Below are positions 1,120 to 33,938 of a DNA stretch of 64,000 nt, piece after piece (the stretch's first letter is position 1; every line of letters begins with the position of its first letter). The DNA comes from Lachnospiraceae bacterium (lineage in GTDB: Bacteria; Bacillota; Clostridia; Lachnospirales; Lachnospiraceae). A model generated the notes under the pieces. It did no database searches. It had not been told where the DNA came from and worked only from the letters and a program-made list of their open reading frames with translations. The DNA is taken from NCBI GenBank assembly GCA_024693845.1, contig JAILKJ010000067.1, forward strand, positions 1-64,000. Reading direction: 5' to 3'. A program made the position numbers and the translations under genes.

Positions 1120-1137
1120 TTTCTGCTCTCCTTTCAC

Positions 1138-2380: not shown

Positions 2381-4069
2381 TTAGTCGAAGTATGCCACTC
2401 TCCTGAACTCTTCCATAGTGGTAACCCCTTGTTCCACAAGTTCGATGCAGGAATCCTTCAGGGTCTTCATGTTCTGGTAACGGATCGCGTAGTCTTTCAA
2501 CTCTTCCGTAGTGGCACCCTTTGCGATCATCTCACGGATCGGCTTGTCAACCAGCAGGATCTCATGGATGGAAACACGGCCGCTGTAGCCTGTGTTGTTG
2601 CAGTGTGCACAACCTCTTGCGATCTTCACCACAGGGATGTCTTTTCCTACGTACTGACGCTCAGCCTCATTCAGCGTCCCTTCCACGCAGCAGTGGGGGC
2701 ACACCTTTCTGACCAGACGCTGGGCAATGATACCGTCAAGGGCACTTGCCAGCATGTAGGGCTCGATCCCCATGTCCACCAGACGGATAACGGAGGATGC
2801 CGCATCGTTGGTATGGAGGGTGGAAAGCACCAGGTGTCCGGTGATAGCCGCTCTGACGGAGATCATGGCGGTTTCGGTATCACGGGTCTCACCAACCATG
2901 ATGATATCCGGATCCTGACGGAGCAGTGCCCTCAGACCAACCTCAAAGGTAAGGCCTGCCACTGGATGTACCTGCATCTGATTGAGTCTGGGCAGGTTCT
3001 TCTCCACGGGATCCTCGATGGTGGAGATGTTCACGGGCTTCTTGGAAAGCTCTGCCAGCATCATATACAGGGTCGTGGACTTACCGGAACCGGTAGGTCC
3101 TGTCATGTAGATGATACCGTTCAGGGACTGCAGCATCTTCTGCACTTTTTCATAATTCTCAAGATTCATACCGAAGGTATCGGAATGATCGATCTGCGCA
3201 TTGCTGGCCAGAAGCCTCAGCACCGCTTTCTCACCGAAGGTGGTGGGAATAAGGGATACACGGACATTGGCGATCTGGTTCTGGATCCTGGCACGGAAAT
3301 GTCCGTCCTGGGGAACTCTGCGCTCTGCGATATCCAGCTCTGCCATGATCTTGATACGGGCGATCAGGGAGGCGTGGATATTTTTCTGCAGTGTTACATA
3401 GTCTACCATGGCGCCGTCGATACGCATGCGAACCATGGTATTTTTCTCAAAGGGTTCGATATGGATATCGGAAACGTTATCCAGATACGCTTTCTCCAAA
3501 AGGCTGTTCACCAGGTTGATGATGGGGGTATCGTCATCACCGTCGGAGGTATCGATGACCATCTCATCCACTTCCCCGGAGGTCTGCGCCAGGTTCGCCG
3601 CATTGACGGCCTTCTTAGCCGAAACCTCTGCGTAGTAGTATTGGATCGCATTTTTCAGCGGTTCGATCTCAGACAAAAAGAGCTGGATGTTACGTCCGCT
3701 GGTCTGGCGGATATCCTCGATGCCGTACAGATCCAGAGGATCGTTGACCACAAGCTGGAGCTGGTCGTTTTCCAGTCCCAGGGGCATCATGTTGTACTTC
3801 TCAGCCAGCTGCTCGGGGATGAGGCGGATCGCATCCATGTCCACCCGTCGGCTGGAGATCTCGATCACCTCGATATTCAGACGCTCAGCCAGCGCCGAAA
3901 GCATCTGCCGCTCGGAGATAAAACCCAGCGTGATGAGGATCGCACCGATACGCTCTCCTTTATGCTCTTTCTGATAGGCCAGCGCCTGTCCGAGCTGATC
4001 ATCCGTGATATACCCCATCTCAATGAGGGTATCGCCTAGTCTCAGTTTTCGAATAATACTGGTATCCAT
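2381..4069 (-). CDS. pilB: Type IV pilus extension ATPase PilB (GspE family)
   Basis: A 562-residue cytoplasmic hexameric ATPase that powers pilin polymerisation. The N-terminus (1-150) looks like an MshEN-type domain (LGDTLIEMGYIT...LGFIS), which in some relatives binds c-di-GMP. The ATPase core has Walker A GPTGSGKS (324-331), an Asp box STIEDPVE (349-356), Walker B DPDIIMVGE (386-394) and a His box TGHLVLSTLHTN (410-421). Four cysteines (C457, C460, C487, C490) form the usual zinc site. The length is typical for PilB/GspE and longer than PilT. It is the last gene of the assembly operon, 39 bp after pilO. No PilT retraction ATPase is seen nearby, so retraction is either encoded elsewhere or absent. 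Confidence 0.95.
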   Translation of the reverse strand: MDTSIIRKLRLGDTLIEMGYITDDQLGQALAYQKEHKGERIGAILITLGFISERQMLSALAERLNIEVIEISSRRVDMDAIRLIPEQLAEKYNMMPLGLENDQLQLVVNDPLDLYGIEDIRQTSGRNIQLFLSEIEPLKNAIQYYYAEVSAKKAVNAANLAQTSGEVDEMVIDTSDGDDDTPIINLVNSLLEKAYLDNVSDIHIEPFEKNTMVRMRIDGAMVDYVTLQKNIHASLIARIKIMAELDIAERRVPQDGHFRARIQNQIANVRVSLIPTTFGEKAVLRLLASNAQIDHSDTFGMNLENYEKVQKMLQSLNGIIYMTGPTGSGKSTTLYMMLAELSKKPVNISTIEDPVEKNLPRLNQMQVHPVAGLTFEVGLRALLRQDPDIIMVGETRDTETAMISVRAAITGHLVLSTLHTNDAASSVIRLVDMGIEPYMLASALDGIIAQRLVRKVCPHCCVEGTLNEAERQYVGKDIPVVKIARGCAHCNNTGYSGRVSIHEILLVDKPIREMIAKGATTEELKDYAIRYQNMKTLKDSCIELVEQGVTTMEEFRRVAYFD

Positions 4070-4108: not shown

Positions 4109-4912
4109 TTACTCCTCTGCTTCCTGCTCCTGCGAAATCTCCGGCTCCACATAAGCATCCGCATCATACATCAGCACCTGAAGATTTACATCCAGCTGCC
4201 TGTCATTCTCCGTCAGCTCCACCAGCTGTCCGTCCACATAGGAAAAGCCGAGAGAATCCACGGTGCTGTAGCCATAGCTGATCACCCGAAGGGACTGATC
4301 CTTAAACAGCTGATCCATCAGGTCCTTCAGCTGGCTCTCTTTTCCGTAGGCCGTCAGATTCACTGAAGCCGCATACACACCGGAAAGTGCCGTATCCGTA
4401 ACCAGGTTGGAATTCTGTTCCAGATCCACGCTCCCGCTGGCAAGTCCCTGGGTAAAGGCCTCTATCTGTGCCTCATCCGGGGTTCCGACCTCCGTGCCGC
4501 TCACCTCCTGCTCTGCCTGACGGGCAGCTTCTTCGGAAAACTGATAGGGCGGAAGGGAAATAGGATCGTTTGGCATATCGATGAAAAGATTCACCGCCTT
4601 CAGCCCCCTGCTCAGCACATAGCCCGTAAGCAGCTCATCCACCTTGGTGGATTCCATCTTGGGATAGTAGCGCGTTGCATACAGATCCACTTTTTCCTGG
4701 ATCTTGTCCTTATATTCGTTGACCAGCGCTTTTCTGCTGATCTTCTGCTCGATCATATCGTGGGTTGCCTGCTCGGTCTCGATCTGCTTGTTGGTCTCAC
4801 GGATCCTGCGGAAGGTGGGACGGATGGCTATGATCACGAAGGAAAAAATGATCACGATGTAGCCGAGCATGTATAACAGCTTTTTATCTCTTTCGGTCAT
4901 ATTCGTAGTCAT
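4109..4912 (-). CDS. pilO: PilO-like pilus alignment protein
   Basis: A 267-residue bitopic membrane protein: a short cytoplasmic N-terminus, one transmembrane helix at about 11-30 (LLYMLGYIVIIFSFVIIAI), a coiled coil (about 35-75) and an extracytoplasmic alpha/beta domain. This is the architecture of PilO/GspM-like proteins, which pair with PilN to link PilM and the ATPase to the pilus platform. Sequence identity to PilO is low and the name depends on topology and position. It overlaps the PilM/N fusion gene by 4 bp (ATGA, 4909-4912), which implies translational coupling. The acidic tail EISQEQEAEE is poorly conserved in such proteins. Confidence 0.75.
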   Translation of the reverse strand: MTTNMTERDKKLLYMLGYIVIIFSFVIIAIRPTFRRIRETNKQIETEQATHDMIEQKISRKALVNEYKDKIQEKVDLYATRYYPKMESTKVDELLTGYVLSRGLKAVNLFIDMPNDPISLPPYQFSEEAARQAEQEVSGTEVGTPDEAQIEAFTQGLASGSVDLEQNSNLVTDTALSGVYAASVNLTAYGKESQLKDLMDQLFKDQSLRVISYGYSTVDSLGFSYVDGQLVELTENDRQLDVNLQVLMYDADAYVEPEISQEQEAEE

Positions 4913-6456
4913 TGCTGCACCTCCGTTTCTTCCTCTTCACTCTGAGCTGCGGAAGGATCGGCCTGAATAACGGGAACCACGTCTCTGCCCGCACTTTCCG
5001 AAAGGGTACAGGATAAAAGTGCCGTCCACTGGGTACCGTCCGCGTTTTCACCGGTCTCGGTATAACCCTTGTAATCCACACTGCTGAAGATGCTCTCCGA
5101 CTTCAGTCTGTTGATGAATTCGTTCAGCAACGTTACATCGTTGAAGGCGGTGGTAAAGGACAGCTGGCCGGACTCGGCATCATAGCCTGTGATCTCGGCA
5201 TTGCCCACACCTGCGGCATCCTGACGGATCACGGACCAGACATTGCTCACCGCCGCCGGGTAGGAATTCAGGTCTGCTTCAAGAGCCTTGAGACCGCCGT
5301 AGTGCTGACCTAAGATCGCCACACGCTCTGCCGCCATATCGTATTCGATGGCTGCAAATTTATTCTCGGGATTGGTATTGTAATCTTCCAGCTCCTTTAA
5401 GTAATTCTTTCGGGACTGGCTGAAAAACAGCATATAGAAGGTAATGATCGCCATTACAAGCGCCGTGGCCAGATAAGGCACATACAGCTTCATGATCTTT
5501 TCCTGGCGGATCTGCTTTTCGCTCTTTTCTTTCTTGATGGATTTGAGAATGTTGATATGGTCCGTTCTGGGGATCAGCCCCGCTGCCGGGTACACCAGGG
5601 TATCAAGGGGTCTTCCGCTGGCGGTTACGTTCACACCCTTTAAGCTGATCAGCTCACCCACCACTACCGGGTTGGAAAGGGTATCCGAGATTGCCTTGGA
5701 GCAGATGGAATCGTCAGTGGAATCCATGCCTGCCAGATAAATGGTGGAAATGGGATCCTCCAGCTTCTGAGACTTGGAGAACTGATCGATCTGATTGATG
5801 ATCTTGGCCACTTCCCGACCGTACTCAGCCGTACCCGCTTCGCTGAACACACGGGTCGAAGTTGAATAATAATACTGTCCTTTTACGAAGAAGATGGCCG
5901 TAATGGTCATGCCGTCACGGATCAGGATCACGCAGTTTTCGCTCTGGGCAAAGCCGGTCTTACGGAACAGGTTGATAGCCGAACCCACACCGCTGAACAC
6001 GCCGCTTAAGGAAATGCCCGCTGCCGAGAATACCTGCAGATAGCTGTTCAAGAACTCGGTATCCGTGATCTCGGCACAGACCTTCGAGGTCTTGCTTTTC
6101 TTATCCCGGCTGATGCGGTAAAAGCCCAAGATCTGCTCCTCTTCCCGCTCGATATATTCTCTTTTCAGATACTCCAGGGTTTTGCCTGAGCTCATTAAGG
6201 GAACATCGGGCACACGGACCTTGATCTGAGGCGTATTTACCACCAGATCGATATCCTTGTTGGGAAGCTTATGGCGATACCAGAAATGCTTGAGTGCATC
6301 GATCAGTGACTGTCCGTCCGTGATAACGCCGTTCAGGACGCTGCCTTCCGGCACCTCCATGGAATAGAAGTGCTTAACGGACAGGCCTTTTTCCGTGCCG
6401 CTTCCCAGCAGAACCTGCACATCCGTATTCGATAGATAAACCGTTACCTGTGACAT
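4909..6456 (-). CDS. PilM-PilN fusion protein of the pilus platform
   Basis: 515 residues that join two usually separate pilus proteins. Residues 1-300 look like PilM, the actin-like cytoplasmic ATP-binding protein: IRDGMTITAIFF and YLAGMDSTDDS resemble its phosphate and adenosine loops. A basic linker (303-322) leads to a single transmembrane helix at about 325-345. A PilN-like coiled coil and alpha/beta domain follow (350-490), then an acidic tail. In separate form PilM binds the N-terminal tail of PilN, so fusion makes that contact permanent. The gene lies 27 bp after pilC and overlaps pilO by 4 bp. Assignment follows from domain order and context. Confidence 0.8.
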   Translation of the reverse strand: MSQVTVYLSNTDVQVLLGSGTEKGLSVKHFYSMEVPEGSVLNGVITDGQSLIDALKHFWYRHKLPNKDIDLVVNTPQIKVRVPDVPLMSSGKTLEYLKREYIEREEEQILGFYRISRDKKSKTSKVCAEITDTEFLNSYLQVFSAAGISLSGVFSGVGSAINLFRKTGFAQSENCVILIRDGMTITAIFFVKGQYYYSTSTRVFSEAGTAEYGREVAKIINQIDQFSKSQKLEDPISTIYLAGMDSTDDSICSKAISDTLSNPVVVGELISLKGVNVTASGRPLDTLVYPAAGLIPRTDHINILKSIKKEKSEKQIRQEKIMKLYVPYLATALVMAIITFYMLFFSQSRKNYLKELEDYNTNPENKFAAIEYDMAAERVAILGQHYGGLKALEADLNSYPAAVSNVWSVIRQDAAGVGNAEITGYDAESGQLSFTTAFNDVTLLNEFINRLKSESIFSSVDYKGYTETGENADGTQWTALLSCTLSESAGRDVVPVIQADPSAAQSEEEETEVQQ

Positions 6457-6483: not shown

Positions 6484-7683
6484 TCAGCTGTTAGCTCCGA
6501 TATAATTGTAGGACTGATAGATCGGCGTGATCACGGAGATCATGATGAAGCCCACCAAAGCAGCCATAACAAAGATCATCACCGGCTCGATCAGGGCCAC
6601 CATCTGTCCGATGGCTCTCTCTGATTCAAACTCCAGGTCTCCCGCCAGGGACTCCAGCATGGAATCCAGGGATCCGGCTTCCTCTCCCACCTTAACGGAG
6701 GAGATCATCTTATTGATAAAACCATCCACTTTACCCAGGGAATAGGACAGTGTCTCGCCCGCCTGGGTATCGGCAATGACCTGGGCGAACTGGGATTCGA
6801 TATAGGAATTACCGATGGTGTTTCGCGCGATCTGCAGGCAGCTGATGATGGGGATTCCCGATGTGTACAGCGATGCCATGGTACGGGCAAAACGAGCCGT
6901 ATAGATAACCTTCATCAATCGGCCGATCTTCGGAAGATGGATCAGCGTTCTGTCCAGGATATATTGCACTTTGGGTATTTTTTTCAAAAAATACCAGGCC
7001 ACATACACGCAGATACAAAAGATGATGATAGCAAAGAAGTGATTCTTAAAGAAAGCACTGATGGCCATCATGATCCGCGTCGGGGTAGGCAGGACGGGCA
7101 TCGAGGAAAAGAGCTCGTCAAACTGCGGCATTACATAACCGAAGATAATGGCGATCACGATCACCAGGACTACCATCAGGATCTTGGGATAAGTGGTGGC
7201 GCTTTTGATCTTGGCATTGAGGTGATCTTCCTTGGCATACTGATCGGCGATCTTCAGTGCGGTGCTATCCATATTACCGCTGGATTCCGCAGCACGGAAC
7301 ATATTGATCATCAACGGCGGGAACACGCCGCCCAGCTTCTCCATTGCCTCGGAAAAGGGCACGCCCTGCATTACGTTGGCCGTGATGGTACCGTATACCG
7401 CCTTCTCATAGGCAGTGGCAGCCTCATCCTCGGATAGCATCTGCAGTGCACGCACCAGCGTTACGCCGGAACGGAGCAGTGTTCCGATCTGGCGGGCATA
7501 CTCGGCCAGTACCTTGGCGGAAAAAGGCTTGTAGTACTTCTTGTCCTCTTCGCCTTTGGCATCCAGCAGCATCAGGTCCTTCATCTTCAGACGATTGTGA
7601 AGATCCTGCTGATCCACTGCATTCATGCTGCCTGATACGATCTTACCGTCAGCAGTCTGCGCCCGGTATTTGTAATTGGCCAT
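6484..7683 (-). CDS. pilC: Type IV pilus inner-membrane platform protein PilC (GspF family)
   Basis: 399 residues with the duplicated GspF domain. The first copy (about 60-185, ARQIGTLLRSGVTLVRAL) and the second (about 265-390, ARTMASLYTSGIPIISCL) are each followed by membrane helices (about 165-190, 212-232 and 368-392). The protein is the polytopic platform on which PilB turns and from which pilin subunits are pulled out of the membrane. The N-terminal YKYRAQTADGKIVSG motif is typical of the family. Length and organisation are normal. It lies between pilD and the pilM/N fusion with 27-35 bp gaps, as expected for one operon. Confidence 0.95.
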   Translation of the reverse strand: MANYKYRAQTADGKIVSGSMNAVDQQDLHNRLKMKDLMLLDAKGEEDKKYYKPFSAKVLAEYARQIGTLLRSGVTLVRALQMLSEDEAATAYEKAVYGTITANVMQGVPFSEAMEKLGGVFPPLMINMFRAAESSGNMDSTALKIADQYAKEDHLNAKIKSATTYPKILMVVLVIVIAIIFGYVMPQFDELFSSMPVLPTPTRIMMAISAFFKNHFFAIIIFCICVYVAWYFLKKIPKVQYILDRTLIHLPKIGRLMKVIYTARFARTMASLYTSGIPIISCLQIARNTIGNSYIESQFAQVIADTQAGETLSYSLGKVDGFINKMISSVKVGEEAGSLDSMLESLAGDLEFESERAIGQMVALIEPVMIFVMAALVGFIMISVITPIYQSYNYIGANS

Positions 7684-7718: not shown

Positions 7719-8660
7719 TCAAAAGAATAATCCCCTGCTCAGTGCCCAGTAGCCGTCCAGCAGACTCTGTCCGCAGACCGCTGCGATCATTACGCCCAGG
7801 CACAGGAAAGGTCCGAAGGCAAAGTGTTCTTTTCTGCCGGCTTTCTTGGCCGCCAGCAAAACCACCGCATAAATGCCCCCTGTGACGATCCCCAAAAAGC
7901 CTGCCACCAGCGTAAGCTTCCAGCCCAGCATAAGTCCCGCGCCCACCATGAGTTTCACGTCTCCTCCTCCGAAGGCGCCCGGAACAGCCAGGATCATCAG
8001 AAACATCGGAAGGGAAAGGGTTACCATCCCGATGAGATGTTCAACGATACCCACGTCATTCAACAGCAGGGCCCCCGCGATTCCCAGCACAAGCATTGCC
8101 GCGGAAAGTCCGTTGGGTATGATCATGGTCTGCGCGTCGATCAGCGTGACCAGAAACAGCAGACACAGGGTCAGAAACATCACGATCAATACGCCGAAGT
8201 CCCTTAGATCCATGCCGGCAGTAATAGCTACCACGTTTCGCAGCTCAAAGCCGGTCTTCAACATAGGAAAAGCCCCGAACCGGAAAAAGATCAGCTCAAA
8301 CAGCAATCCTCCCGCCAGCTCCGCCACCAGCTGACGTCGCCGTATCTTGGCTTTGCACACCCGGCATCTGCCCTTTAAAAACAAAAAACTGAAAATGGGA
8401 ATCAGTTCATAAATCTTTAAGACCTGCCCGCAGGCATCGCAGACATAATCCCCCTTGAAAATCTCGCCAAACGGAAATTTGGCCGGCTGCCAAGTCTCCC
8501 CCTCAGAAGACTCGGCGGCCTTCTCCTGCGCCTCCTCCTGCTCTGTCAGCCAGGCTGAGATCCGCTCAGCCAACGCCAGTAAAAAGGAGAACGTCAGGGC
8601 TCCGATCAAAAACAGAAAAACAATTGTCAGGATCTGTAACAAAAGCTCCATGGAATTCAT
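7719..8660 (-). CDS. pilD: Prepilin peptidase / N-methyltransferase PilD (A24 family)
   Basis: 313 residues and about eight membrane helices. It cuts class-III prepilin signals after Gly and N-methylates the new residue. The two catalytic aspartates are D175 (LIDAQTMIIPNG) and D234 in GGGDVKLM. The N-terminal cytoplasmic loop has the C74-x2-C77 and C99-x2-C102 pairs of the methyltransferase half. A Glu/Ala-rich stretch (33-66) between the first helix and the first CxxC is an insertion relative to the usual short sequence. The start at 8660 has GGGTGA about 5 nt upstream; M4 is an alternative. Its substrates here would be the five prepilin-like proteins encoded between 9.4 and 23.3 kb. Confidence 0.95.
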   Translation of the reverse strand: MNSMELLLQILTIVFLFLIGALTFSFLLALAERISAWLTEQEEAQEKAAESSEGETWQPAKFPFGEIFKGDYVCDACGQVLKIYELIPIFSFLFLKGRCRVCKAKIRRRQLVAELAGGLLFELIFFRFGAFPMLKTGFELRNVVAITAGMDLRDFGVLIVMFLTLCLLFLVTLIDAQTMIIPNGLSAAMLVLGIAGALLLNDVGIVEHLIGMVTLSLPMFLMILAVPGAFGGGDVKLMVGAGLMLGWKLTLVAGFLGIVTGGIYAVVLLAAKKAGRKEHFAFGPFLCLGVMIAAVCGQSLLDGYWALSRGLFF

Positions 8661-11879: not shown

Positions 11880-13670
11880 CTACTTCAGATATTTTTCCAC
11901 CAGGAAGGTAACTCTCTTCCGGGTCCAGTCCGCTGCGGTGGAATTCTCCAGCATGGGCTGCATGCTGCCGCCTTCTGCCTCGGAGCCGGCTGCCTTCCTG
12001 GCTGCCTCTTTATTCTGTACCCATTCCTTCTGGGAAGCGGAAAGCGACTCAAAGCTGCTCTCATCCATGGTATTGCCCAGGTATGCCCAGATCCGGTTCA
12101 GCAGGGTGTCCCAAAGATCAAAGGATTCATAGGAAATGGAATTCAGGGTCACCTGATCCAGGGTCGCATCCTCTGTGATCCGCTTGTCCATCTCATCCTG
12201 CTTCTCCTTAGCCTGCTCATACATGGCCACAAGATCGGAGGCATCGTCCACCTTCTGGGTACTGATGATATCGCTGTACTTGGCAATGTTATTTTCGATC
12301 TGGCAGTCCTCCATCTTAACCTCGTAGTTGGAGAAGATGTTGTACTTGTTATCCGTGAAGCTGCACTTTTTGAAGGTTATATCATCATATTCGGACATCT
12401 GTACAAAATAGCTGCCCTCATTGGTTGACTCGTTATTCTTAAAAGTACAGTCCTCAAAGGTAATGTCATAGCAGGAATCGATGCTGAGCATGGAATACTC
12501 CCGGCTGTCCCTGAGGGTGCAGTTGTTGATGTGTGCCGTGCTGACACCGGAAAAGCTGAGCAGACCATAGGTACATTCATAGATGTCACAATCCGTCACA
12601 TCCATGTAGCTGCAGCTGTAGGCATCGATACCGTAGGTGCCGCTGCCGTACAGATTACACTTATCAACCTTGATGCCGGATACACCGCTGTAATACAGCA
12701 CGCTGCCGCTGCAGTAGCCCGGCTCCACCTCATGACCGACGGTCAGGTTGCGCAGAACGATATTGTTACCGTCCTGGAAGCTCAAGACCGCATCATAGGG
12801 ATCACTGATTGTGACGCTGACCTTGGCACCTTCCTTACCCTCGATACAGAGGTTGGAAATACCCGTAACGGTTCTTGCGCTGATCTCATACTTGAGGGCA
12901 TCGTTATTGATGGCCGATTCCGGAACGGCGGTAAGGTCATAATGACCTTCTTCCAGGATGATCTTGGTATTGTTTTTGATGCTGTTCAAAAGCTCTTCGG
13001 CGGTACTTACGGTTACCGTATCGAAATAGCGGATCTCCTCTTTGTTCTCGAACTTGGGGCTGTCCTTTTTGAAATAGGTCTTAACGGAAAGGGAGTGGAA
13101 ATAGTAATCCTCATCGGTGGTCTCGTACTCCTCGGTCTCGATCAGAGTCTCGTCATCCAGCATGGTGATCCTGCGGGAGACATCATCCGCCTTGATGGGC
13201 TCCTCCATCTCCATATACCAGTCCTTGTTGGGACAATCCTTGTAAGCCGGTTCTTCCTTCAGAGAAAGCTTGTTGCCGTAATAACGGTACTCCGACTCAT
13301 AGAAGGCATAGCGGTAATCGGCGATGTACTGATTCCCCTCCTTCTGGACACGGATGGCAGATTCAGGGCAATAGGGATCATCACACATGGTGTAATAATC
13401 GTAGCTGTCGCCTTCGGAATAATCGGAATGATCCAGGCTGTAGGCAAACTCCCACTCGCCCACCATGGCATCCAGACTGATGTCGCCGGAAGCCTGTGAC
13501 TGATCTTCTTCCTTGCTCTCATCGACCTTTGCCTCGGCATTGCTTTCATCCTGCTCCGTGTTTTCCGTATTTTCTGCAGGCTCCGGATTCTCTGCGGGTG
13601 CATTTCCTCCGCATCCCGTCATCGCCAGCATGGCTACCGTTACGATTGCAAGTATCACTCTTTTTTTCAT
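11880..13670 (-). CDS. Lipoprotein with a parallel beta-helix and a C-terminal LprI-like domain
   Basis: 596 residues. The lipobox LAMTGC (C20) predicts lipid anchoring on the outer face of the membrane. A Glu/Asp/Asn-rich linker (20-70) precedes a domain of about 140 residues. Then come NosD-like right-handed beta-helix turns (about 230-440: IVLRNLTV, IKVDKCNLYGSG, MDVTDCDIYECTYG, AHINNCTLRDS, ITFEDCTFKNN, ITFKKCSFTDN). The last 90 residues (LWDTLLNRIWAYL...QKEWVQNKEAA...EKYLK) resemble the DUF1311/LprI fold but lack its cysteines. ATG 13670 is chosen because AGGAG sits 8 nt before it. Its place between the giant pilin and the minor pilins suggests a pilus-associated carbohydrate- or wall-binding role (inference). 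Confidence 0.72.
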   Translation of the reverse strand: MKKRVILAIVTVAMLAMTGCGGNAPAENPEPAENTENTEQDESNAEAKVDESKEEDQSQASGDISLDAMVGEWEFAYSLDHSDYSEGDSYDYYTMCDDPYCPESAIRVQKEGNQYIADYRYAFYESEYRYYGNKLSLKEEPAYKDCPNKDWYMEMEEPIKADDVSRRITMLDDETLIETEEYETTDEDYYFHSLSVKTYFKKDSPKFENKEEIRYFDTVTVSTAEELLNSIKNNTKIILEEGHYDLTAVPESAINNDALKYEISARTVTGISNLCIEGKEGAKVSVTISDPYDAVLSFQDGNNIVLRNLTVGHEVEPGYCSGSVLYYSGVSGIKVDKCNLYGSGTYGIDAYSCSYMDVTDCDIYECTYGLLSFSGVSTAHINNCTLRDSREYSMLSIDSCYDITFEDCTFKNNESTNEGSYFVQMSEYDDITFKKCSFTDNKYNIFSNYEVKMEDCQIENNIAKYSDIISTQKVDDASDLVAMYEQAKEKQDEMDKRITEDATLDQVTLNSISYESFDLWDTLLNRIWAYLGNTMDESSFESLSASQKEWVQNKEAARKAAGSEAEGGSMQPMLENSTAADWTRKRVTFLVEKYLK

Positions 13671-13788
13671 TTGCATTTCTCCTAACTGTTTCTTTCTATT
13701 TCCGGCTTTCCGGTTTCCGCGACGATCTCTTCTGTTTGAAACCCGCAAACGGACAATCCCTGTGGGGGACTGAATCCGGACGGATTCA

Positions 13789-16700
13789 TCACGGCGTTAC
13801 CGTCGGCGTCGTCTCCAGATACAATACGTTGGTGGCCTTGAACTCATCCTTAGCCAGCGGAGCGGCATAGAAGTATACCGGAGCCGACGGGGTTCCGCCT
13901 TCCTGTGTACCGCCGGTTGCCGAATAATTCTTGGCGATCAGTTTGATGAATCCGTTCGCTCTCGTGGCGATAGCATCGTCAACTGCCTCATTGGTCTTAA
14001 ACCAGGTATGCAGGTAGTGACCTGCCACATGTTTCGGGAAGGCCATACCGCTGTACCAGCAGGCTACATGGATATCGGTATAATCATCCAGATGCAGACC
14101 GGTGTTTTCATCCGTCAGATGAATCGGGATCTCCACATCATACAGATAATTTGCACTTTTCTTATCAGGAAGCTTCTTGTCTGCTTCCAGATACAGGGTA
14201 ACAACCTTACCCGATGCATCCGTACCGAACATCTCCACTGTAATATACTGCGGCTCCTCTCCGTTATTGTTCGGGTGTGATTTCGTGTGCAAATGTCCCG
14301 TATAATCGATCGCTCCGGGAGATCTGGTCAGGATTTCATTATCTATACTGTCCATATCGACTTTTGTCTCAACCGAATCCAGACTAGACTTCAGACGCAT
14401 CGCCAAATTGGTTGTCTTATCATAGTCATACACATCGGAATCTTCAAAGCCGGGTGCCGTGGCAACGGCGGATTTCTTCCAATACTGGGCAGTTCCGGGA
14501 TTCTTGTTTCCCTTTGCCTCTGTTTCAAACCGGTATCCCCATTCATTTGTCAGGCCCAGACCCAAAACATCCATATTCGAAAGAACATATTCTTCATGGT
14601 GGTTTGTACCTTCCAGTGTAACGGTGATGGTAGCGTTCAATCCCGTAAACTTATCGGCATTCACAAGACGCACATACCATTCTCTGTCGTTCTTTGACAG
14701 CTTGCAGAATTCCACGATGGGAGTTGTCAGCTTCAGCGGCATTCTCATATAAGTGCTTGCGCCGTAGGCGGTCAGGTAGCCGTCGTTTGCAGGGGTTCCG
14801 TCAGCTGCCGCCAGATCGGAATCGTAGATCTGCATAACGATATAGTAATCATAATTGACCGCATCATAGCTACCGGTAAAGCCGCCGGTATACCAGCCGC
14901 TGGGAGGCAGTGCCCCCGTTACTTCCTTCGCTGCAACATCCTCTGTCACACCTTCTGCCACGATGGTATTACCGCTTACAGAACCCACTCCCGCCAGCAG
15001 ATCCTCTGCCGAGGCAACCGCCGTGTTCTTCGGTACCTGAATAAAGGTCTCTTTGACATTGTATTTATTTGTATCGCTGATATCGGAATTCACCGTCCAG
15101 GTTGCCTTATGCGTAGTATCATCTGCAGTGGCACTGAGCACCTTCGCAATGGTGGCTCCCGAATCGCGGCGAAGCTCCTTATTATTGTAATAAGCATGAT
15201 CCTTCAGCGGAGCTGCGTAGTAGTAGACCGCATTTTCTGATACGCTGCGGATATTCTCATCCAGACCCACATAGGTAAGGATGCCCTCGCTTCTGTCATA
15301 GCCGTTGGCCTGTGCCACTTCTTCCGTCGTCTTAAAGTACTGGGTAAGCTTCCTGGTATTGGTGTTCGGATAATTCATGGCCGAATACCAGGCTGTCAGG
15401 TGGAAGTCATAGAACCGGCTCAGGTCACCCAGGTTCTTTGAGGTGTCCGGCGTAAGGGTAAAGCTCATATCCAGATCGTTGTTGCCGGGCTGCAGCTGGT
15501 GATCAAGATCCAGATAAAGGGTCTTATACTCACCGTCCGCAGAATCCTTTGCAAAAAGCTCAACCGATACATACTGGGGCTGGTTTGCATCATTGACGCT
15601 GGGTGTATGCAGGGTTCCCGTATAGGTCAGCTTACCGTCGGCGCCCAGCTTCATGGAATCGCCGGTGATGGGCGACATATCAACGCCGGTATCGTTGCCC
15701 AGGTTCTTCTTAAGGTTCACGGCGCCACGGCTGGTGCCTTCACCGAAGATAACGAAGTCGGAAGCAAAGCTCTCCTCTCCGACAGCCCTTGCTTCAACGA
15801 TCACATTACTGTTCAGCTTACCGTCAATGCTGCCTCCGTAGAAATCCAGATTCTCATGTCCTGATACTTTATCCTTTGCAGAGAAGACCGTAGTCACGTA
15901 ATCCGTGGGCTTGGTCGCATTCCTTACTCTTACCTCGATCTGAGCTCCCGGCGCATCCGCATAATCTTCCGGATTGACAAGGCGTGCCCACCAGCCTCCG
16001 GCAGAGTTCGCATTCCCCGGTGCTCCCCTGGTCAGATGCACGATCTCGATCTCGGGCTCAACCAGCTCTTTGACTGTATGGAAATAATACTTCGTGGTGC
16101 CCGTGGAAATATCCGTAATATAGCCGGTGCTTCGATCCTTGGGAACACCGCTTTCCACAGCCCACTTCTGGGTTGTTTCAAAGTAGGTATTAACATCACC
16201 CTGTCCGGAGTTGGCATACCAGTATGCCACACCGAAGGTGTCCGTATCCTTAAATTCTTTCTTTACGCTTGCCGGTACATAGTAAGAGCCGATATCGACC
16301 TTCTGGGATTGGCCGACTTCCAGCATGACATCCTGTCTTGCCACCGTCTCCTGCCAGGTCTTGCCGCCCTCAGTCCTGATTCGGTAAAGCTCCAGAAGGA
16401 TGTACTGGGGGATGGGCGGGGTGATGGTATCGTCAAACTGATCATAGGTCAGGATCGCCTCATACTGCGGGTCCTTACCGGTGAGCACCTCTGTTGTCAC
16501 CGTAGCAGTGATCAGGGTGTTGGGATGGGCCTTCTGGGGCACATAGACCGTCATGGTCTGAACATCCGCCGACAGATAACCGGTGGCCGTAGCAAAGGTC
16601 TGAATCTCCAGATCCTGCTGACCCTTGGCAAAATTCTTATCATCTATATACGTATCGGAGATGTTGTTAAGCAGATTTGTATCCGTGCTCTTGTACTCGA

Positions 16701-19700
16701 TGGAATCCGCCGCGATGGCAACTTCGGTGGCAGTATTTTTCTTGCCGAGGTTGTTCAGCAGGTATGCGCCCACCCTGATGTTGGCACCTTTTTCAATGTA
16801 AGGCATGAATACATCCGGGTTCAGCAGATGCAGCCGCCACAGGCCGCCGTATTCCACGATCTCGAATTCGGGAGAAGGAAGCTTTTCAAGCAGAACGGCG
16901 TAGGAGCGGATATCATCCTCACCATCTCCTTCATCCTCAACGTCGGAGAATCCCAAGGTAGCATAATTTGCCGCCGTTGTATCCCGCAAAGCCCTGTAAT
17001 CGCGCGCTCTGACTACCAGGTAGTACTTTCTTCCGCTCTCATATTCGGGAAGTGTGGGCGCGTCAATGGTGGTGGTCCTTGAAGTAACCACCTGTTCCGT
17101 TTCTTTTTCAAGTCTGTAGTAAGTCGGCAGATCCGAGTTGCCGTTAAAGTCATCTGCATCAAAAGTCTCTTCCGACGGCAGACTGTAAACGGAGATCTTC
17201 ATCTGGTAACGGGTAGCGGTTACGGGCTTGTTGTTTCTCTCCACCGGCTTCCAGCTGATCTTGTAACGGCCGGATTCCGTATCCTCTTTCACATTAACGT
17301 CGTCTACGTTGTCCCAGCCGCGGATACTCTTCACATAGTCCGCATGCTCGATATAATCGCGGTCCAGCTGATAGTATCCGTCCTCATCCCAGTCAAACTC
17401 GTCCGCAATGGGAAGACGGCTCTTTTCATAGGTCCCGGCTTCATATTTATTACTATAGGAATAGTGCTGCGCATCATCCATCTTGGTGATGTTCCGATCC
17501 ATATCCTTCTCGGAGAAGGTATGGATCACAGGTCCTACCAGATCCGCATCTCCCACAGGGTTTACCTGCAGGAAAAGTGCATCTCTGTTTTTGCGCTGGC
17601 TATCCTTGCCGATCCAGGCATTTTCTGTATTGGCACTTCTTACCATGCCTCCGTCCTCTTCCGCGATCAGCGCATAGGTTTCGTCGTTCTCATCAACGGA
17701 CACGGCAAACAGACGCTGCACCGCTGCTTCCGGCTCGGAATCGATGGTTTTTGCAAAATTGGTATAGTAAGTTCTGAGACTTCCGCCTGCTACATACTCC
17801 TCTGCCAGGCTGTCACCCAGCTCTCCGGTGGATTGTATCCCCGAAGAAGGCTTTGCAGCATTCACCCTGGAAAGCTGCCTGAGTGAAATGACTTTTTGAT
17901 TTGTAACGCCGGGAATGGTAACAAGTCTCTCCTGATTTCTGGAAACATCCTCCGAGGAAGGCAGATACTGGAAGGACAGATTGTCAATCACATAGTTATC
18001 GGAACAGTATTCCAATCCTCTGCCCCATTCGGGATGCTTGGAACTCTTTTTAACATCATCCCTGGAAAAGATCTTGCAGTCGGCAGTGGTATAACCGTTG
18101 CTGGTATAATCTCCCACTCGTACCGTCAAGCAGTTCTGAACAGCCAAGTAACCCGCTCTGCTTGCTTTCGTGATTTCGGGTTTGGAGGCGAAGATGGAAC
18201 CTTCCTTGTTATCAAGCACCCGCTTGTTTCCGACAGCCATGCGGTCATTAAAGGCATAAATATCATCGCTGTAGTTGCGGCAGCTGATCAGATTGACAAC
18301 GGCATTGTTCTCCGTTTCCGCTATGGTCTTGCTCTCTTTCCTGTTGGTTGCCGAATAATCCGACACGCCGCCGACTCTGCACAGGATAGCGGCGCAGGCG
18401 GAATGGGTATAAATTTCTGCTCCCACACCGTTGACGCAGTCTTCCATGTTGAGTACATAGTAACGGTCATTCTTGGGAGAGGAAAGCTGTCCCACAATGC
18501 CGCCTACGTCGTTGGCGGACATTCTTCCCCAGTTGCTGACCAGGGTCTTTCGGTCGGCGGAAATACCCCGGATCGGGAGATTGACCACGCCGTGATTCTG
18601 ACATGAGATCACGGAGACACTCTGGTCGAAATTCATCTCCGTCAGATGGGACATGATGCCGCCGGCAGTACCTACATAACCGCCGATACCGTTCTTATTA
18701 TCCGCAAAGCCGCACATCAGGGTTCCGTAATTATAGCAATACTGAACCGTGCCGCCGTTCTTTCGCATCTTAGCGATCACGCCGCCCACGTTGTTTCCGT
18801 ACAGATTAGCCACATAGCCCGCATTGGCGCAGCCTTCAATAACCCAGCCATCTTTCGTGACATTACTCTGGGTTCCGATCACGCCGCCCACATAATGGAA
18901 GGCATGAGCATCAAAGACCGGATCCGGCTCATCGGTCATTGCGTTCGATGCATAAAGATCAACATCCAGGTCACAGGGCAGCTCTCTTCTGATATAGGCA
19001 AGATTCAGGTTGTAGCGGAACTTTCTTCCGTCAGCCGCATTTTCTCCTGCGATGCCGCCTATTGCAGAGATGGTCGAGGTGGGAAGATAACTCTCCACTA
19101 CCCAGCGACCGGTGCTGCAGTATTCCACTTCACCGGACTTGCTGTTATAACCTACGATACCTCCCAGATAGCCCTTACCGGTATCCATTGTGATCCGGCA
19201 GCGGTTATCACCGATGTCATAGGCGGGAAGTCCCGTGGCATCCGCCTCCTTGGGAAGACTCGCACAGGTATTGACAGGATCGGACCAGTAGCCAGCCAGA
19301 TATCCGCAGGCGGAAGCTGCCGAAATGGAAGAATCCTTCTCCGGCTGATCGTTCAGCTCATCGGTCAGGCCCTTCATAAATTTACGCCGCAGCATTTCCG
19401 CAGCCGCTGCAGAGATCTCCTTTGCCCTGACGCGCTTGCCGGCATCAATATCGATCTTGGACTCGGCAAAAGACTCCACCTTACTTCTTAAGGTATCCCG
19501 GGCAGCCGCCCAGTCGGTACCTGCTTTATAATCCTCAGAATACTCCTTATTGCCCTCCTCCTCGGATGCGATCTCCATGTAACGGATGGCTTCATCCGCA
19601 AAGGCCATGTCCTTTGTGGGATTGCTCGGCGCTGCGGAGAGGGTCATGAACCGGTGGAAGGGTTTTTCTCCCGCCTGCGTCTTTGCCAGATCTTCCCGAA

Positions 19701-22700
19701 GCAGGATCAGTCTGTCGGTATAACCGCAGTGCTGAACGCGGCCGATGTTAACCGCCGCAATACCGCCTGCCATACCGTTGACCACGGAGAATTCCGTTCT
19801 CCGGTCAATGATGGGCTGGTTGGATGTATTTCCTACAAAACCGCCGTTCTCTGTCTTGAAATGGGCCGTCAGATGGCAATCCTTGATCAGAGCCCCTGCC
19901 TCGTTGGAAGCGCATACACCGCCGATCCGGGAGCTCTTGTCCAGCTTCTGGGCCTCTGTATCACTCTCGGATAGCGTACATACACCGCGGGCCAGGATCG
20001 AGGCACCCACAAGGTTGCAGTCTTTGATCACGGGCTGTTTGGTCTTTCCCGTCTCTTTTGCATTGACCGCAACGATACCGCCGATCCTAAGCTCCTTGAT
20101 GGAGCGTCCGTTTGTCTTCTGATCGATGCTTCCGCTGAAGATACAATCCTTGATGTCACCGTGATTCTTGCCGGCCACGCCGCCCAGTATGGCTGCACTG
20201 CCCATCTTCATATCCATGGTGGATTCGAAGTTCTTGACAGTACCCGTGCTGTAGTTCACACCGGCGCCGCCGCCGATGACAATATCGTTCCTGAGGGTCT
20301 CGTAGGCTACGTAAGGACCTACGAGACCGCCGTCCAGCATGCCCTCGTTCTCCCCGATCAGGTAACCGAAGATATCCATGCTGTTACCCTTGATGGTGAT
20401 CCTTTCGGTATCCTCCAGACCGGACTGGTCCTTATGCAAAAGTGCACAGCCGCAATCCTTGACAATGGCTTTTTCATGGTTGATGCAGGTAACGGCACCT
20501 GCTGCGTTCTCGTTTCCTTCGATCAGCGGCAGATAGGTCTTGCTATCATCCTTAAAGCGGTCCACATAGCAGCTTTCCAGATAACCGAAGTTCTCGGCAC
20601 TGATACCGCCTGCGATACCCTTGGAGGCACCTACCTCTCCGTAATCCACGCACTCGCTGATGTACGCACTTTTACCACTGAATCCGACAATACCGCCCAC
20701 CATGTCACGGCCGAAGACATTGCCGTAGTTCTCACAGCCCACGATCCTGGGCGCGATCTCTGTTTTCGGGATGGCAATATCCCCTGTCTGGGCAGCCGTT
20801 TTTCCGGTCTTCACCCAGATGTTTCCGACGATGCCGCCCACCATATCGTTCTTGCTGCCGCCGGTTTTCTCATTGATATCCACATAGCTGACCACGGAGC
20901 GAAGATCCAGCTTACTGTCCGCCTTCAGCTGCTCTGCACTGCTGACGCCACTGCCCTTGACATAGAAGACGGGATCGTTACCGGATACGGTTGAGATCGT
21001 ACCGTCTACAGCCTTCTCGGCTTTCTCCATCTTCAGATAGCCGTCCTCTTCGCTCTTGAGCAGTTTATCGATAACTGCATTCTGGGAAAGGCCCAGAGCA
21101 GACTGACTCGCAAGAGCAACGTTGGCTTCCCCCGTCTTTGTCAGGTCGCCGCTGACATATCCGAAGATACCGCCCACACCATAAGCATAGGTATCTGCGT
21201 AGGTCTCATTCAGCTTTTCTCTTTCCGCACTCTCGGAATAATCGGGAACTGTTTCGGTACCTCTGATATAGCCCTTCAGCTGCCCGCCTGCCCGGATCCT
21301 GTCATGGCTCTGCAGTGCTTTTCCGTCCTGCTTAGCCTTCAGTGTGAGCACGCCGCCCACCATACCGACGCCGCAGCCCTTCTGTTTATCGGGAGAAGGA
21401 TCCTGCACCAAAGTGGCCTCACTCTCACACGTATCATCAAGATACACTTCTTCTATGGAACCCTCATCCCGTCCGCAGAGGATACCTGCGGCACGAAGGG
21501 TATCGGAAAAGATGGCGCCGTCAGCACTTTCACTCACGCCGTCCGCATCAGCCTGTGCTTTGGTCAGCACCGAAAGCTTGGCGCCGGAAAGGATGAGCCT
21601 GCGGATCTTACCCTTATTCTCATCCACAATACCGATGCTCTCCGCCTTGTTGGTGGAACCGGTTTTGATGGATCCGTCGGTGTCTCTGTCAGATGCCGCA
21701 AAAGTGATATTGGAGGAGTTATCCATCTTCAGATCAAAGATGGTATAGCCGTCTCCGTTCAGGGTACTTTCTTCGGACAGTTCCGGGATCGAGGCAAAGA
21801 AAAGCTTATCCGCGGCGATTTTCTGTCCGTCCGGGGTCAGCACCTGATACTGCAGGGCCTTCTCCATATCTATATGATCCTTCAGGGTATAGGTATAATC
21901 CTTCTTCGTCTCGCCTGCATCCTCCAGGCGCTTCTTGGAACTCTCACCAAAACGGATATTGGACAGGTGTCTGGGATAGAGTACACCATAACTGCCGCGC
22001 TGCAGAGGCTGCACCGCGCCCAGATCATCCTTATCCGTGGCAAACAGATCGTTTTCAATATTGGAGTCCTTGCTTTCGGCATGCAGCCCGCTGAGGGCAC
22101 CGCCTGCTCCTGCCGAAGGCTCTACTTCCACCGTGGCAAAAATGAGAGCCGGGTCATCCCCCAGGAATCTGGTGATGCTTAGGCCTGTACGATCCGTACG
22201 TCCCTCCGTAAGCTCATTACCGGATGAATCTTTGGTATTCAGACGGGCATAAGTATTGGAATTCATGGTGGCATCCAGCATCAGCGTTACATTCAGCTTG
22301 TCGGTGTTGCCCGCCACTCTCGAGGGCTGATATCCCACATAGAAATAGCAATCGGAATAATCACTTTCTCCCGCAAGCTTGGCCTGCAGTTTTGCACGTC
22401 TGTATTCTACCGGATCAGGAGGGGTGTCCGGATCGAAGGCTGTGGGATCGATCCCTTTGTCCAGCCATTCCTGCTTGAACATATCCTCCATAGGATCCAT
22501 CTTCACACTGAAGACTTCCTGATCTCCACTGTCTGTCTTCTTATAGAAAGTCAGGGTGTAAGCAGTATGATACTCGTAAGAGTCAGAATCGGAACGGAAG
22601 TCCAGATGCAGCAACTCCTCGTTATAGAGCATGGCTTCCTCCACTTCCCAGGAAAAGCCGCTGTCCTCAATCTGTGCCACGTTGACCTGATCGGCTGCAT

Positions 22701-23328
22701 AATAACCGATGCTGTAGTCCCGGCGCATGGTCTCTGCCCGGGAAGCGGGATTGATCTCATAGGGGCCCCAGACACTCGTTGCTTCAATATTTTCATTATA
22801 GGCATAGAGGCTCGCCCAGCTGGAATAAAAGACGGAATAAACCTTGCCGGCAGTCAGATCGAACTCCACCGCCACGCTGCCGTCCAAAGTCTCCGTATCG
22901 GAAAGATAGGGACCGATGATCTCATATAAAAGCTTACTCTCGGGAATAGAATTGTCCCTGAGGGTTCCTTTATCCGCCTTCAGGGTCGCATACTTATGCT
23001 GCTTATCATGATTATCCGTATTGTCCGGCAGACCGTATTTTGTCTTCTCAGTCGATGTGGTAAATACTTTGGCGGCGCCGGCCTGTGCTTCGACGCGGTC
23101 CATCAGCTCTTCCAGGCTGCCTCTTGACGCATACGCAGAAAGCCCGGACTGCGCGCCCAGGTAGATATAACGTGCCGTCTCTTCATTCCGGATATAGGTG
23201 AAATGATCGATCCAACCCGTAACGCCCCACATGGTGGCACCCATCATAATGGCCATGACCATGATGACTACCATCATTTCCACCAATGTGAAACCGTATC
23301 GATTGTCCTTTCTTCGTTTATTTCTCAT
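13789..23328 (-). CDS. Giant pilin-like surface protein (3,179 aa) with a class-III prepilin signal
   Basis: The N-terminus (MRNKRRKDNRYG|FTLVEMM) is a full prepilin leader: cleavage after G12, Glu17 at +5, then the hydrophobic spine VVIMVMAIMMGATMWGV. Over 3,000 extracellular residues follow. About 650-1650 carries many GLUG-like turns (GGIVGNIW, GGIVGFSGK, GGIAGENA, GGVIAKM, GGIVGQLS) typical of adhesins. About 2000-2130 resembles a fibronectin type III domain (YQMKISVY ... KYYLVVRARDY). About 2150-3165 has three diverged repeats, each with a W-x-RLVNPD-like strand, PQY[IV]-[ST]VE[LM], a WYS/WYA block and a Y[FY]-[AH] block. There is no sorting signal, so anchoring would be as a pilin. It heads the minor-pilin operon from its own promoter. 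Known pilins rarely exceed 500 residues. A tip adhesin is the likely role. Confidence 0.85.
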   Translation of the reverse strand: MRNKRRKDNRYGFTLVEMMVVIMVMAIMMGATMWGVTGWIDHFTYIRNEETARYIYLGAQSGLSAYASRGSLEELMDRVEAQAGAAKVFTTSTEKTKYGLPDNTDNHDKQHKYATLKADKGTLRDNSIPESKLLYEIIGPYLSDTETLDGSVAVEFDLTAGKVYSVFYSSWASLYAYNENIEATSVWGPYEINPASRAETMRRDYSIGYYAADQVNVAQIEDSGFSWEVEEAMLYNEELLHLDFRSDSDSYEYHTAYTLTFYKKTDSGDQEVFSVKMDPMEDMFKQEWLDKGIDPTAFDPDTPPDPVEYRRAKLQAKLAGESDYSDCYFYVGYQPSRVAGNTDKLNVTLMLDATMNSNTYARLNTKDSSGNELTEGRTDRTGLSITRFLGDDPALIFATVEVEPSAGAGGALSGLHAESKDSNIENDLFATDKDDLGAVQPLQRGSYGVLYPRHLSNIRFGESSKKRLEDAGETKKDYTYTLKDHIDMEKALQYQVLTPDGQKIAADKLFFASIPELSEESTLNGDGYTIFDLKMDNSSNITFAASDRDTDGSIKTGSTNKAESIGIVDENKGKIRRLILSGAKLSVLTKAQADADGVSESADGAIFSDTLRAAGILCGRDEGSIEEVYLDDTCESEATLVQDPSPDKQKGCGVGMVGGVLTLKAKQDGKALQSHDRIRAGGQLKGYIRGTETVPDYSESAEREKLNETYADTYAYGVGGIFGYVSGDLTKTGEANVALASQSALGLSQNAVIDKLLKSEEDGYLKMEKAEKAVDGTISTVSGNDPVFYVKGSGVSSAEQLKADSKLDLRSVVSYVDINEKTGGSKNDMVGGIVGNIWVKTGKTAAQTGDIAIPKTEIAPRIVGCENYGNVFGRDMVGGIVGFSGKSAYISECVDYGEVGASKGIAGGISAENFGYLESCYVDRFKDDSKTYLPLIEGNENAAGAVTCINHEKAIVKDCGCALLHKDQSGLEDTERITIKGNSMDIFGYLIGENEGMLDGGLVGPYVAYETLRNDIVIGGGAGVNYSTGTVKNFESTMDMKMGSAAILGGVAGKNHGDIKDCIFSGSIDQKTNGRSIKELRIGGIVAVNAKETGKTKQPVIKDCNLVGASILARGVCTLSESDTEAQKLDKSSRIGGVCASNEAGALIKDCHLTAHFKTENGGFVGNTSNQPIIDRRTEFSVVNGMAGGIAAVNIGRVQHCGYTDRLILLREDLAKTQAGEKPFHRFMTLSAAPSNPTKDMAFADEAIRYMEIASEEEGNKEYSEDYKAGTDWAAARDTLRSKVESFAESKIDIDAGKRVRAKEISAAAAEMLRRKFMKGLTDELNDQPEKDSSISAASACGYLAGYWSDPVNTCASLPKEADATGLPAYDIGDNRCRITMDTGKGYLGGIVGYNSKSGEVEYCSTGRWVVESYLPTSTISAIGGIAGENAADGRKFRYNLNLAYIRRELPCDLDVDLYASNAMTDEPDPVFDAHAFHYVGGVIGTQSNVTKDGWVIEGCANAGYVANLYGNNVGGVIAKMRKNGGTVQYCYNYGTLMCGFADNKNGIGGYVGTAGGIMSHLTEMNFDQSVSVISCQNHGVVNLPIRGISADRKTLVSNWGRMSANDVGGIVGQLSSPKNDRYYVLNMEDCVNGVGAEIYTHSACAAILCRVGGVSDYSATNRKESKTIAETENNAVVNLISCRNYSDDIYAFNDRMAVGNKRVLDNKEGSIFASKPEITKASRAGYLAVQNCLTVRVGDYTSNGYTTADCKIFSRDDVKKSSKHPEWGRGLEYCSDNYVIDNLSFQYLPSSEDVSRNQERLVTIPGVTNQKVISLRQLSRVNAAKPSSGIQSTGELGDSLAEEYVAGGSLRTYYTNFAKTIDSEPEAAVQRLFAVSVDENDETYALIAEEDGGMVRSANTENAWIGKDSQRKNRDALFLQVNPVGDADLVGPVIHTFSEKDMDRNITKMDDAQHYSYSNKYEAGTYEKSRLPIADEFDWDEDGYYQLDRDYIEHADYVKSIRGWDNVDDVNVKEDTESGRYKISWKPVERNNKPVTATRYQMKISVYSLPSEETFDADDFNGNSDLPTYYRLEKETEQVVTSRTTTIDAPTLPEYESGRKYYLVVRARDYRALRDTTAANYATLGFSDVEDEGDGEDDIRSYAVLLEKLPSPEFEIVEYGGLWRLHLLNPDVFMPYIEKGANIRVGAYLLNNLGKKNTATEVAIAADSIEYKSTDTNLLNNISDTYIDDKNFAKGQQDLEIQTFATATGYLSADVQTMTVYVPQKAHPNTLITATVTTEVLTGKDPQYEAILTYDQFDDTITPPIPQYILLELYRIRTEGGKTWQETVARQDVMLEVGQSQKVDIGSYYVPASVKKEFKDTDTFGVAYWYANSGQGDVNTYFETTQKWAVESGVPKDRSTGYITDISTGTTKYYFHTVKELVEPEIEIVHLTRGAPGNANSAGGWWARLVNPEDYADAPGAQIEVRVRNATKPTDYVTTVFSAKDKVSGHENLDFYGGSIDGKLNSNVIVEARAVGEESFASDFVIFGEGTSRGAVNLKKNLGNDTGVDMSPITGDSMKLGADGKLTYTGTLHTPSVNDANQPQYVSVELFAKDSADGEYKTLYLDLDHQLQPGNNDLDMSFTLTPDTSKNLGDLSRFYDFHLTAWYSAMNYPNTNTRKLTQYFKTTEEVAQANGYDRSEGILTYVGLDENIRSVSENAVYYYAAPLKDHAYYNNKELRRDSGATIAKVLSATADDTTHKATWTVNSDISDTNKYNVKETFIQVPKNTAVASAEDLLAGVGSVSGNTIVAEGVTEDVAAKEVTGALPPSGWYTGGFTGSYDAVNYDYYIVMQIYDSDLAAADGTPANDGYLTAYGASTYMRMPLKLTTPIVEFCKLSKNDREWYVRLVNADKFTGLNATITVTLEGTNHHEEYVLSNMDVLGLGLTNEWGYRFETEAKGNKNPGTAQYWKKSAVATAPGFEDSDVYDYDKTTNLAMRLKSSLDSVETKVDMDSIDNEILTRSPGAIDYTGHLHTKSHPNNNGEEPQYITVEMFGTDASGKVVTLYLEADKKLPDKKSANYLYDVEIPIHLTDENTGLHLDDYTDIHVACWYSGMAFPKHVAGHYLHTWFKTNEAVDDAIATRANGFIKLIAKNYSATGGTQEGGTPSAPVYFYAAPLAKDEFKATNVLYLETTPTVTP

Positions 23329-25285: not shown

Positions 25286-25332
25286 AAGGTTTTGGGCCTC
25301 CATTTGTTACGAAAATGTTACATTTCTTGTTA

Positions 25333-33524: not shown

Positions 33525-33938
33525 TCAACCCTCCAGCTGAGAGGTGCAATGAGGACATCTGGTGGCATCCTTGTTGATCTCGCTCTTGCAGTAAGGGCAG
33601 ATCTTGGTGGTAGGAGCTGCTTCCTCTTCCTTCTTCTTACCCAGATCCATCAGCTTGTTGATGGCCTTGAGCATGGCAAACAGGATCAGTGCCATGATCA
33701 CGAAGTTGATGACCGCCGTGATAAAGGTTCCGTAATCCAGTGCCTGGCCGCTTGCTCCCAGAGGGATGGTACCGTGAACCTCAGCTCCGCCGATCAGAGC
33801 GATCAGAGGCTGGATGAAGCACTCGGTAAGTGCGGTAACGATATTGCCGAAAGCTGCACCGATGATAACACCGACAGCCATATCCATTACATTACCCTTC
33901 AGGGCAAAGGCTTTAAACTCTTCCATAAATTTCTTCAT
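33525..33938 (-). CDS. mscL: Large-conductance mechanosensitive channel MscL with C-terminal zinc ribbon
   Basis: 137 residues. The MscL core is at about 1-97: [24 protein letters not shown], the TM1 pore-lining helix, then TM2 at about 70-92 and the KKKEEE cytoplasmic start. The homopentamer opens under membrane tension to release solutes in hypo-osmotic shock. In place of a plain C-terminal helix there is a rubredoxin-like knuckle pair, C114-x2-C117 and C128-x2-C131, expected to bind zinc. The gene is 19 bp after the aquaporin gene and shares its promoter, so water and solute release look co-regulated. Confidence 0.95.

Follow-up and report, generated by a model that had tools for sequence, protein, structure and literature searches.

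The window, a stretch of 64,000 nucleotides from a contig of Lachnospiraceae bacterium (GenBank accession number JAILKJ010000067.1), contains a complete monoderm type IV pilus (T4P) operon, all of it on the minus strand (Table 1). The first gene of the operon encodes a giant prepilin-like protein of 3,179 residues, which starts with ATG and has no internal stop codon, and whose mature form is 347 kDa, approximately 20 times the size of an ordinary pilin. It is followed by genes encoding a 622-residue lipoprotein, the PilX-, PilV-, and PilW-like minor pilins, the major pilin, a 174-residue protein, PilD, PilC, a fused PilM/PilN-like protein, PilO, and PilB, with intergenic gaps of no more than 40 bases, except on the two sides of the major pilin gene (128 and 206 bases). 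The cognate peptidase and the assembly machine expected for a type IV pilin (PilD, PilC, PilM/N, PilO, and PilB) are thus encoded in the same operon as the giant protein. The initial annotation, which gave no strand, described a prepilin leader joined to more than 3,000 residues in one open frame, and this description holds, with the frame lying on the minus strand.

A 12-pair terminator-like hairpin (23748-23721) lies between the operon and the gene directly upstream of the giant, which encodes an NlpC/P60 endopeptidase with SH3 domains (23804-25303, minus strand) and is found in the same place in the congeners L131, L132, and L134. The position of a wall hydrolase next to a giant pilin may be meaningful, though the hairpin intervenes. 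The 622-residue lipoprotein (11880-13748, minus strand), whose gene separates that of the giant from that of the PilX-like minor pilin, has an LprI domain and contains a right-handed beta-helix. It is missing from this junction in three congeners (L134, L135, and L136) and therefore looks like a recent insertion in the minor-pilin cluster. Downstream of pilB (253-2103, minus strand), two neighboring genes encode secreted proteins of 294 and 321 residues, neither with a Pfam match, and an MscL channel whose C terminus carries a zinc-ribbon-like stretch is encoded at 33525-33938 (minus strand). Elsewhere in the same genome, there are a second PilB/PilC-like pair (G000:C66, L141) and an orphan major-pilin-like gene (G000:C69, L144), the match to which holds a stop codon near its start.

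Table 1. Genes of the pilus operon and regions of the giant minor pilin in the window
Feature	Position	Strand	Remarks
Giant minor pilin gene	13789..23328	-	3,179 aa, mature 347 kDa
Class-III prepilin leader, residues 1-12	23293..23328	-	cleavage expected after Gly12
Pilin module, residues 13-215	22684..23292	-	hydrophobic spine, Glu+5, predicted long helix 15-68, then head
Ig-like beta-sandwich "adapter," residues 226-429	22042..22653	-	Z 7-8 (common fold); giants only
Conserved RHLxNIR motif, residues 453-459	21952..21972	-	start of solenoid region
GLUG-type solenoid, residues ~480-1780	17989..21891	-	GG motifs and model of part
Right-handed beta-helix, modelled residues 806-1190	20913-19759	-	structure comparison
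Fn3-like domain, residues ~2003-2147	16888..17322	-	predicted beta-sandwich, Z 7.8 to Fn3 of integrin beta4
C-terminal repeat 1, residues ~2140-2430	16039..16911	-	self-comparison
C-terminal repeat 2, residues ~2425-2730	15139..16056	-	self-comparison
C-terminal repeat 3, residues ~2890-3179	13792..14661	-	self-comparison
PilX/GspK-like minor pilin, 187 aa	11308..11871	-	without Glu+5, as expected of capping subunit
PilV/GspI-like minor pilin, 131 aa	10897..11292	-	
PilW/GspJ-like minor pilin, 300 aa	9967..10869	-	
Major pilin, 143 aa	9407..9838	-	N_methyl 3.4e-11
Membrane protein, 174 aa	8676..9200	-	conserved in operon
PilD prepilin peptidase	7719..8660	-	
PilC platform protein	6484..7683	-	
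Fused PilM/PilN-like protein	4909..6456	-	
PilO-like protein	4109..4912	-	
PilB extension ATPase	2381..4069	-	

The N terminus of the giant consists of MRNKRRKDNRYG followed by FTLVEMMVVIMVMAIMM, with the predicted cleavage site between Gly12 and Phe13, a mature part that starts with FTLVEMM, and Glu at +5 in the hydrophobic stretch. It matches the Pfam N_methyl family above the family cutoff (5.5e-7) and TIGR02532 (3.8e-5), and the intact class-III leader with Glu+5 recognized in the initial annotation is thereby borne out. This 27-residue leader is the only part of the giant that matches a known family in Pfam or NCBIfam. When the profile of the giant family was compared with the PDB, residue 13 paired with residue 1 of mature pilins (PilE1 8pfb, 6.5e-11), which fits cleavage after Gly12, and G12, T14, and E17 are invariant across 21 relatives. 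Residues 11 to 36 form the sole strongly hydrophobic stretch; no second membrane segment was found in the hydrophobicity profile of the whole protein, and LPxTG-type sortase motifs are absent throughout the giant family, indicating that the pilin helix is the sole anchor. The giant thus lacks the LPxTG-type motif and hydrophobic C-terminal tail that define sortase-anchored adhesins.

The similarity to pilins extends past the leader, into the predicted long helix and the head. A hidden Markov model (HMM) of residues 50 to 215, from which the leader and spine were left out, matches approximately 40 giants as well as stand-alone pilins of 198 to 237 residues; many of the matched sequences lie outside its training set, and the other pilins of these operons are almost never matched. 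Because this model finds both giants and stand-alone pilins, the leader does not appear to be merely a borrowed signal peptide, and at the level of sequence the head of the giant is a real and specific pilin family, forming a full pilin module. The domain after the head (residues 216 to 470) is matched in long members only. Stand-alone pilins of 198 to 213 residues that are homologous to the head occupy the same operon slot in relatives. In a tree of 44 pilin heads, including one "short" entry (L092) that is cut by a contig end, the short forms are scattered, with six gains or losses of the arm on the best tree, of which the strongly supported branches force only one.

The remaining ~2,960 residues form an arm of predicted extracellular beta-structure, composed of an Ig-like adapter, a GLUG beta-helix, and tandem beta-sandwiches. 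The structure models have low mean pLDDT values (58 and 56) and are locally informative; residues 632 to 864 are modelled with low confidence, and residues 1191 to 1990 lie outside the models. The giant contains 20 GG[IVAYMG][IVACGSLM] motifs, 18 of them within residues 500 to 1750, compared with 4.2 expected after shuffling. The Pfam GLUG threshold is reached in 5 of 16 homologs and is not reached in the giant of the window. The modelled beta-helix agrees with the GG[IV]xG motifs (residues 500 to 1750) and with these Pfam matches, so that the GLUG-like turns noted in the initial annotation are confirmed. In the structure comparison, residues 806 to 1190 match best to M26 IgA1 proteases (Z 22-24, ~263 residues at rmsd 3.1-3.3), with other beta-helices, such as those of the pectinase type, matching at Z 15 or less. 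An M26-like GLUG beta-helix is an extra module that is not specific to T4P biology, by which modular pilins are recognized. The HExxH motif is missing from the giant of the window and from every giant examined; a reading of the region as an M26 metalloprotease was rejected on this ground, and a structural solenoid is the likelier interpretation.

The C-terminal third of the giant is predicted to be a chain of beta-sandwiches with three diverged repeats. Residues 2532 to 2727 align with 2972 to 3177 (E=1e-20) and residues 2307 to 2421 with 2584 to 2710 (E=9e-5). The initial annotation had counted three repeats of 270 to 290 residues; three are present, but with spacings of ~277 and ~440 residues this description is only roughly right. 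The Fn3-like domain that it had also proposed is supported by moderate evidence from the structure comparison. No catalytic domain was found in the giant with Pfam or NCBIfam, and no lectin, vWA, or other binding domain was recognized. A sequence search of the PDB with the arm gave no credible match.

Homologous frames of ~855 to 7,662 residues, with a prepilin leader and located beside pilus genes, were found in 22 other genomes when 200 genera of the family were sampled. A contig scan with the N-terminal alignment as the query recovered 39 loci, and the same scan with the full-length giant recovered no relative. The C-terminal part has homologs in all seven sampled genomes (species) of the window's genus. 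The relatives that have names agree with an assignment to Lachnospiraceae. PilM/N of the window's type is present in 24 of the 200 genomes, and 20 of these carry the giant family, as giants in 18 and as ordinary pilins of 198 and 213 residues in 2 (G152 and G172). The other four have a different, smaller T4P locus, which lies beside clpB in at least two. The giant therefore recurs in most related bacteria carrying the same pilus (18/24). The order giant-PilX-PilV-PilW-major pilin-(174 aa)-PilD-PilC-PilMN-PilO-PilB-(PilT) is conserved in many relatives. Among 398 sampled genomes of the phylum, the full match to head plus adapter is restricted to Lachnospiraceae. Elsewhere, the matches of the model are mostly to ordinary pilins, and a few are to separate large prepilins, which have 670 (in the same family), 1,232, and 2,182 residues.

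The genome of the isolate Lachnospiraceae bacterium AC2029 encodes two tandem giants of 2,077 and 2,437 residues on a 3.86-Mb contig, the name of which points to long-read polishing. A 238-residue pilin adjoins the 2,077-residue giant (L103 2749-9959) and shares 68% identity with it over the first 88 residues, indicating that a second pilin head, of the major type, has acquired a giant arm as well. The 7,662-residue prepilin contains 72 GG motifs and adjoins a PilT-like gene and a small pilin (L043/L044, G179:C19:310577-333565, minus strand). In G002 (L033 10165-13802), enlargement extends to the PilV- and PilW-like minor pilins, which have 579 and 629 residues.

The genome assembly to which the window belongs is a draft of 85 contigs, and the giant could in principle be an assembly error, a frameshift fusion, or a decaying gene. 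Between two congeners with unsaturated dS (0.475), the dN/dS ratio is 0.157 overall, 0.173 for the pilin module, 0.177 for the solenoid, and 0.142 for the C-terminal part, which are equally low values and indicate that the whole arm, including its C terminus, is under purifying constraint. With homologs in 7/7 genomes of the genus, this low ratio (0.16), and two giants on the 3.86-Mb contig of AC2029, an artifact has a negligible probability and was rejected.

The pilin module fused to a giant arm, the operon with its own peptidase, the recurrence, and the purifying selection are directly supported, and on this basis we consider it reasonably probable that the giant belongs to a monoderm T4P as an extreme form of modular minor pilin, taking an H-like position in the tip complex and doing the job of PilY1. 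The initial annotation had proposed a PilD-processed, pilus-inserted tip adhesin; the fusion, the operon, and the recurrence stand, and cleavage by PilD, assembly into the fiber, the tip position, and the adhesive function are what we infer. The giant would be exported by Sec and held by its spine helix, and the operon's PilD would cut it after Gly12. It would then enter the complex that starts the fiber, alongside the other three minor pilins and in the role of the H-like subunit. A subunit without Glu+5 is the mark of the capping subunit in an HIJK tip complex (PMC10191384). In none of the 16 relatives compared does the PilX-like partner have Glu+5, and in 6 of them it matches the GspK model weakly, as the HIJK complex predicts. 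The giant is tentatively placed in the H slot by gene order and weak matches, and the PilV- and PilW-like proteins are placed in the I and J slots by gene order and size. Since T4P fibers are built tip first (PMC9934059, PMC10191384), the giant would be placed at the tip, and its arm would cross the wall ahead of major pilin addition. The long, multidomain arm would hang from the pilus tip and bind a surface, a polymer, or a cell, doing in a monoderm what the separate PilY1 does in diderms. The arm most likely serves in binding, given the analogy with Streptococcus sanguinis PilB and PilC and the lack of PilY1 in monoderms (PMC9934059).

The bulk of the arm, which exceeds every pilin in the literature examined, raises the question of whether it can follow the fiber at all. 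A processed giant might stay at the base as a fixed membrane or wall adhesin, a plug, or a priming platform, and the pilin helix, which doubles as a membrane anchor, would allow this. In addition, no PilT-sized ATPase was found in the window's genome, so the arm may not be retracted by the usual motor here. PilT, however, adjoins the giant in many relatives, and the conserved head, the linkage to the whole operon, and the ordinary pilins in the same slot of relatives argue for assembly, making retention at the base unlikely. It is less likely still that the giant is no pilus subunit but a surface protein that is released or stands by itself, with the class-III leader serving only as an export signal. 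Members of the phylum with other pilus loci do hold large prepilins with short N-terminal similarity only, but the similarity of the giant to stand-alone pilins spans the head (residues 50 to 215), far past the leader, and its operon position is conserved. The arm might also be mainly enzymatic, acting from the pilus as a beta-helix polysaccharide depolymerase or hydrolase that cuts mucin, fiber, or capsule. Pectinases, alginate epimerases, and tailspike depolymerases use right-handed beta-helices and match that of the giant at Z 12-15. The best matches, however, are to the noncatalytic helix of the IgA1 proteases, HExxH motifs and catalytic domains are lacking as described above, and the Pfam matches of 16 giants comprise N_methyl, GLUG, one M26 N-terminal match, and nothing else, so a mainly enzymatic arm appears the least probable of these three.

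An assembled modular tip pilin thus remains our preferred reading. A broader proposal, that an H-like tip pilin with a single giant arm of 1,500 to 7,700 residues is the rule in T4P-bearing Lachnospiraceae and that the small pilin is one state of the slot, is one on which we are evenly divided. If it is true, these pili are started by a subunit of ~150 to 800 kDa that crosses the wall first, a self-contained replacement for the PilY1 system. The modular-pilin principle is known; the size of these proteins and their prevalence in T4P-bearing Lachnospiraceae look unreported in the open papers searched, which yielded neither giant type IV pilins nor type IV pilins of Lachnospiraceae. If the preferred reading is true, gut and rumen Lachnospiraceae display enormous pilus binding arms, a class hidden by current annotation, and modular pilins extend from ~50 kDa to several hundred kilodaltons. 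It would provide a monoderm answer to PilY1 replacement and raise the testable question of how a T4P machine assembles a giant subunit and gets it across the wall, for which a pilin head that occurs both alone and with a giant arm offers natural comparisons.

The M26 IgA1 proteases (7uvk and 6xjb) share the GLUG-type right-handed beta-helix with the giant and differ in having a metalloprotease domain and a different anchor. CofB/TcpB and Tad tip pilins such as KilN/TadG are much smaller than the giant. Compared by description, these are minor pilins of other pilus classes with extra C-terminal domains that are located at the tip, as proposed or shown (PMC8179133, PMC12075869). In diderms, PilC/PilY1 is likewise proposed to be a large tip effector on a minor-pilin complex, but PilY1 is not a pilin and has the IPR008707 propeller. 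The giant has a pilin module and no IPR008707/PF05567 match, and its assignment to the PilY1 family was rejected. PF05567 was not found in the 200 genomes, which is weak evidence since control genomes gave no match either. Tip adhesins were regarded in the initial annotation as separate proteins without a pilin domain, a view that is outdated, as modular pilins, in which a pilin is combined with an adhesin module, are widespread, with PilB and PilC of S. sanguinis as established examples (PMC8179133, PMC9934059). The text of the modular-pilin survey presents an 860-residue protein as extreme in its number of extra domains (PMC8179133). A pilin-plus-GLUG architecture (IPR012902-IPR011493) was mentioned by Raynaud et al. 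in 2021, with the second module interpreted as a predicted peptidase of the M26 family (PMC8179133), whereas the giants examined lack HExxH; the giant of the window probably represents this architecture at a very large size. A close parallel is with S. sanguinis PilB and PilC, which also belong to a monoderm T4P and have a class-III leader, a small pilin module, and a large C-terminal extracellular module. A tip complex has been proposed for both, and PilC has an Ig-like module, as does the giant. In contrast, they are ~50 kDa rather than 347 kDa and carry vWA and ConA-like lectin modules with shown ligands in place of a GLUG beta-helix and beta-sandwiches, and the slot of the giant sits in a PilX/PilV/PilW set, whereas S. 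sanguinis has PilABC.
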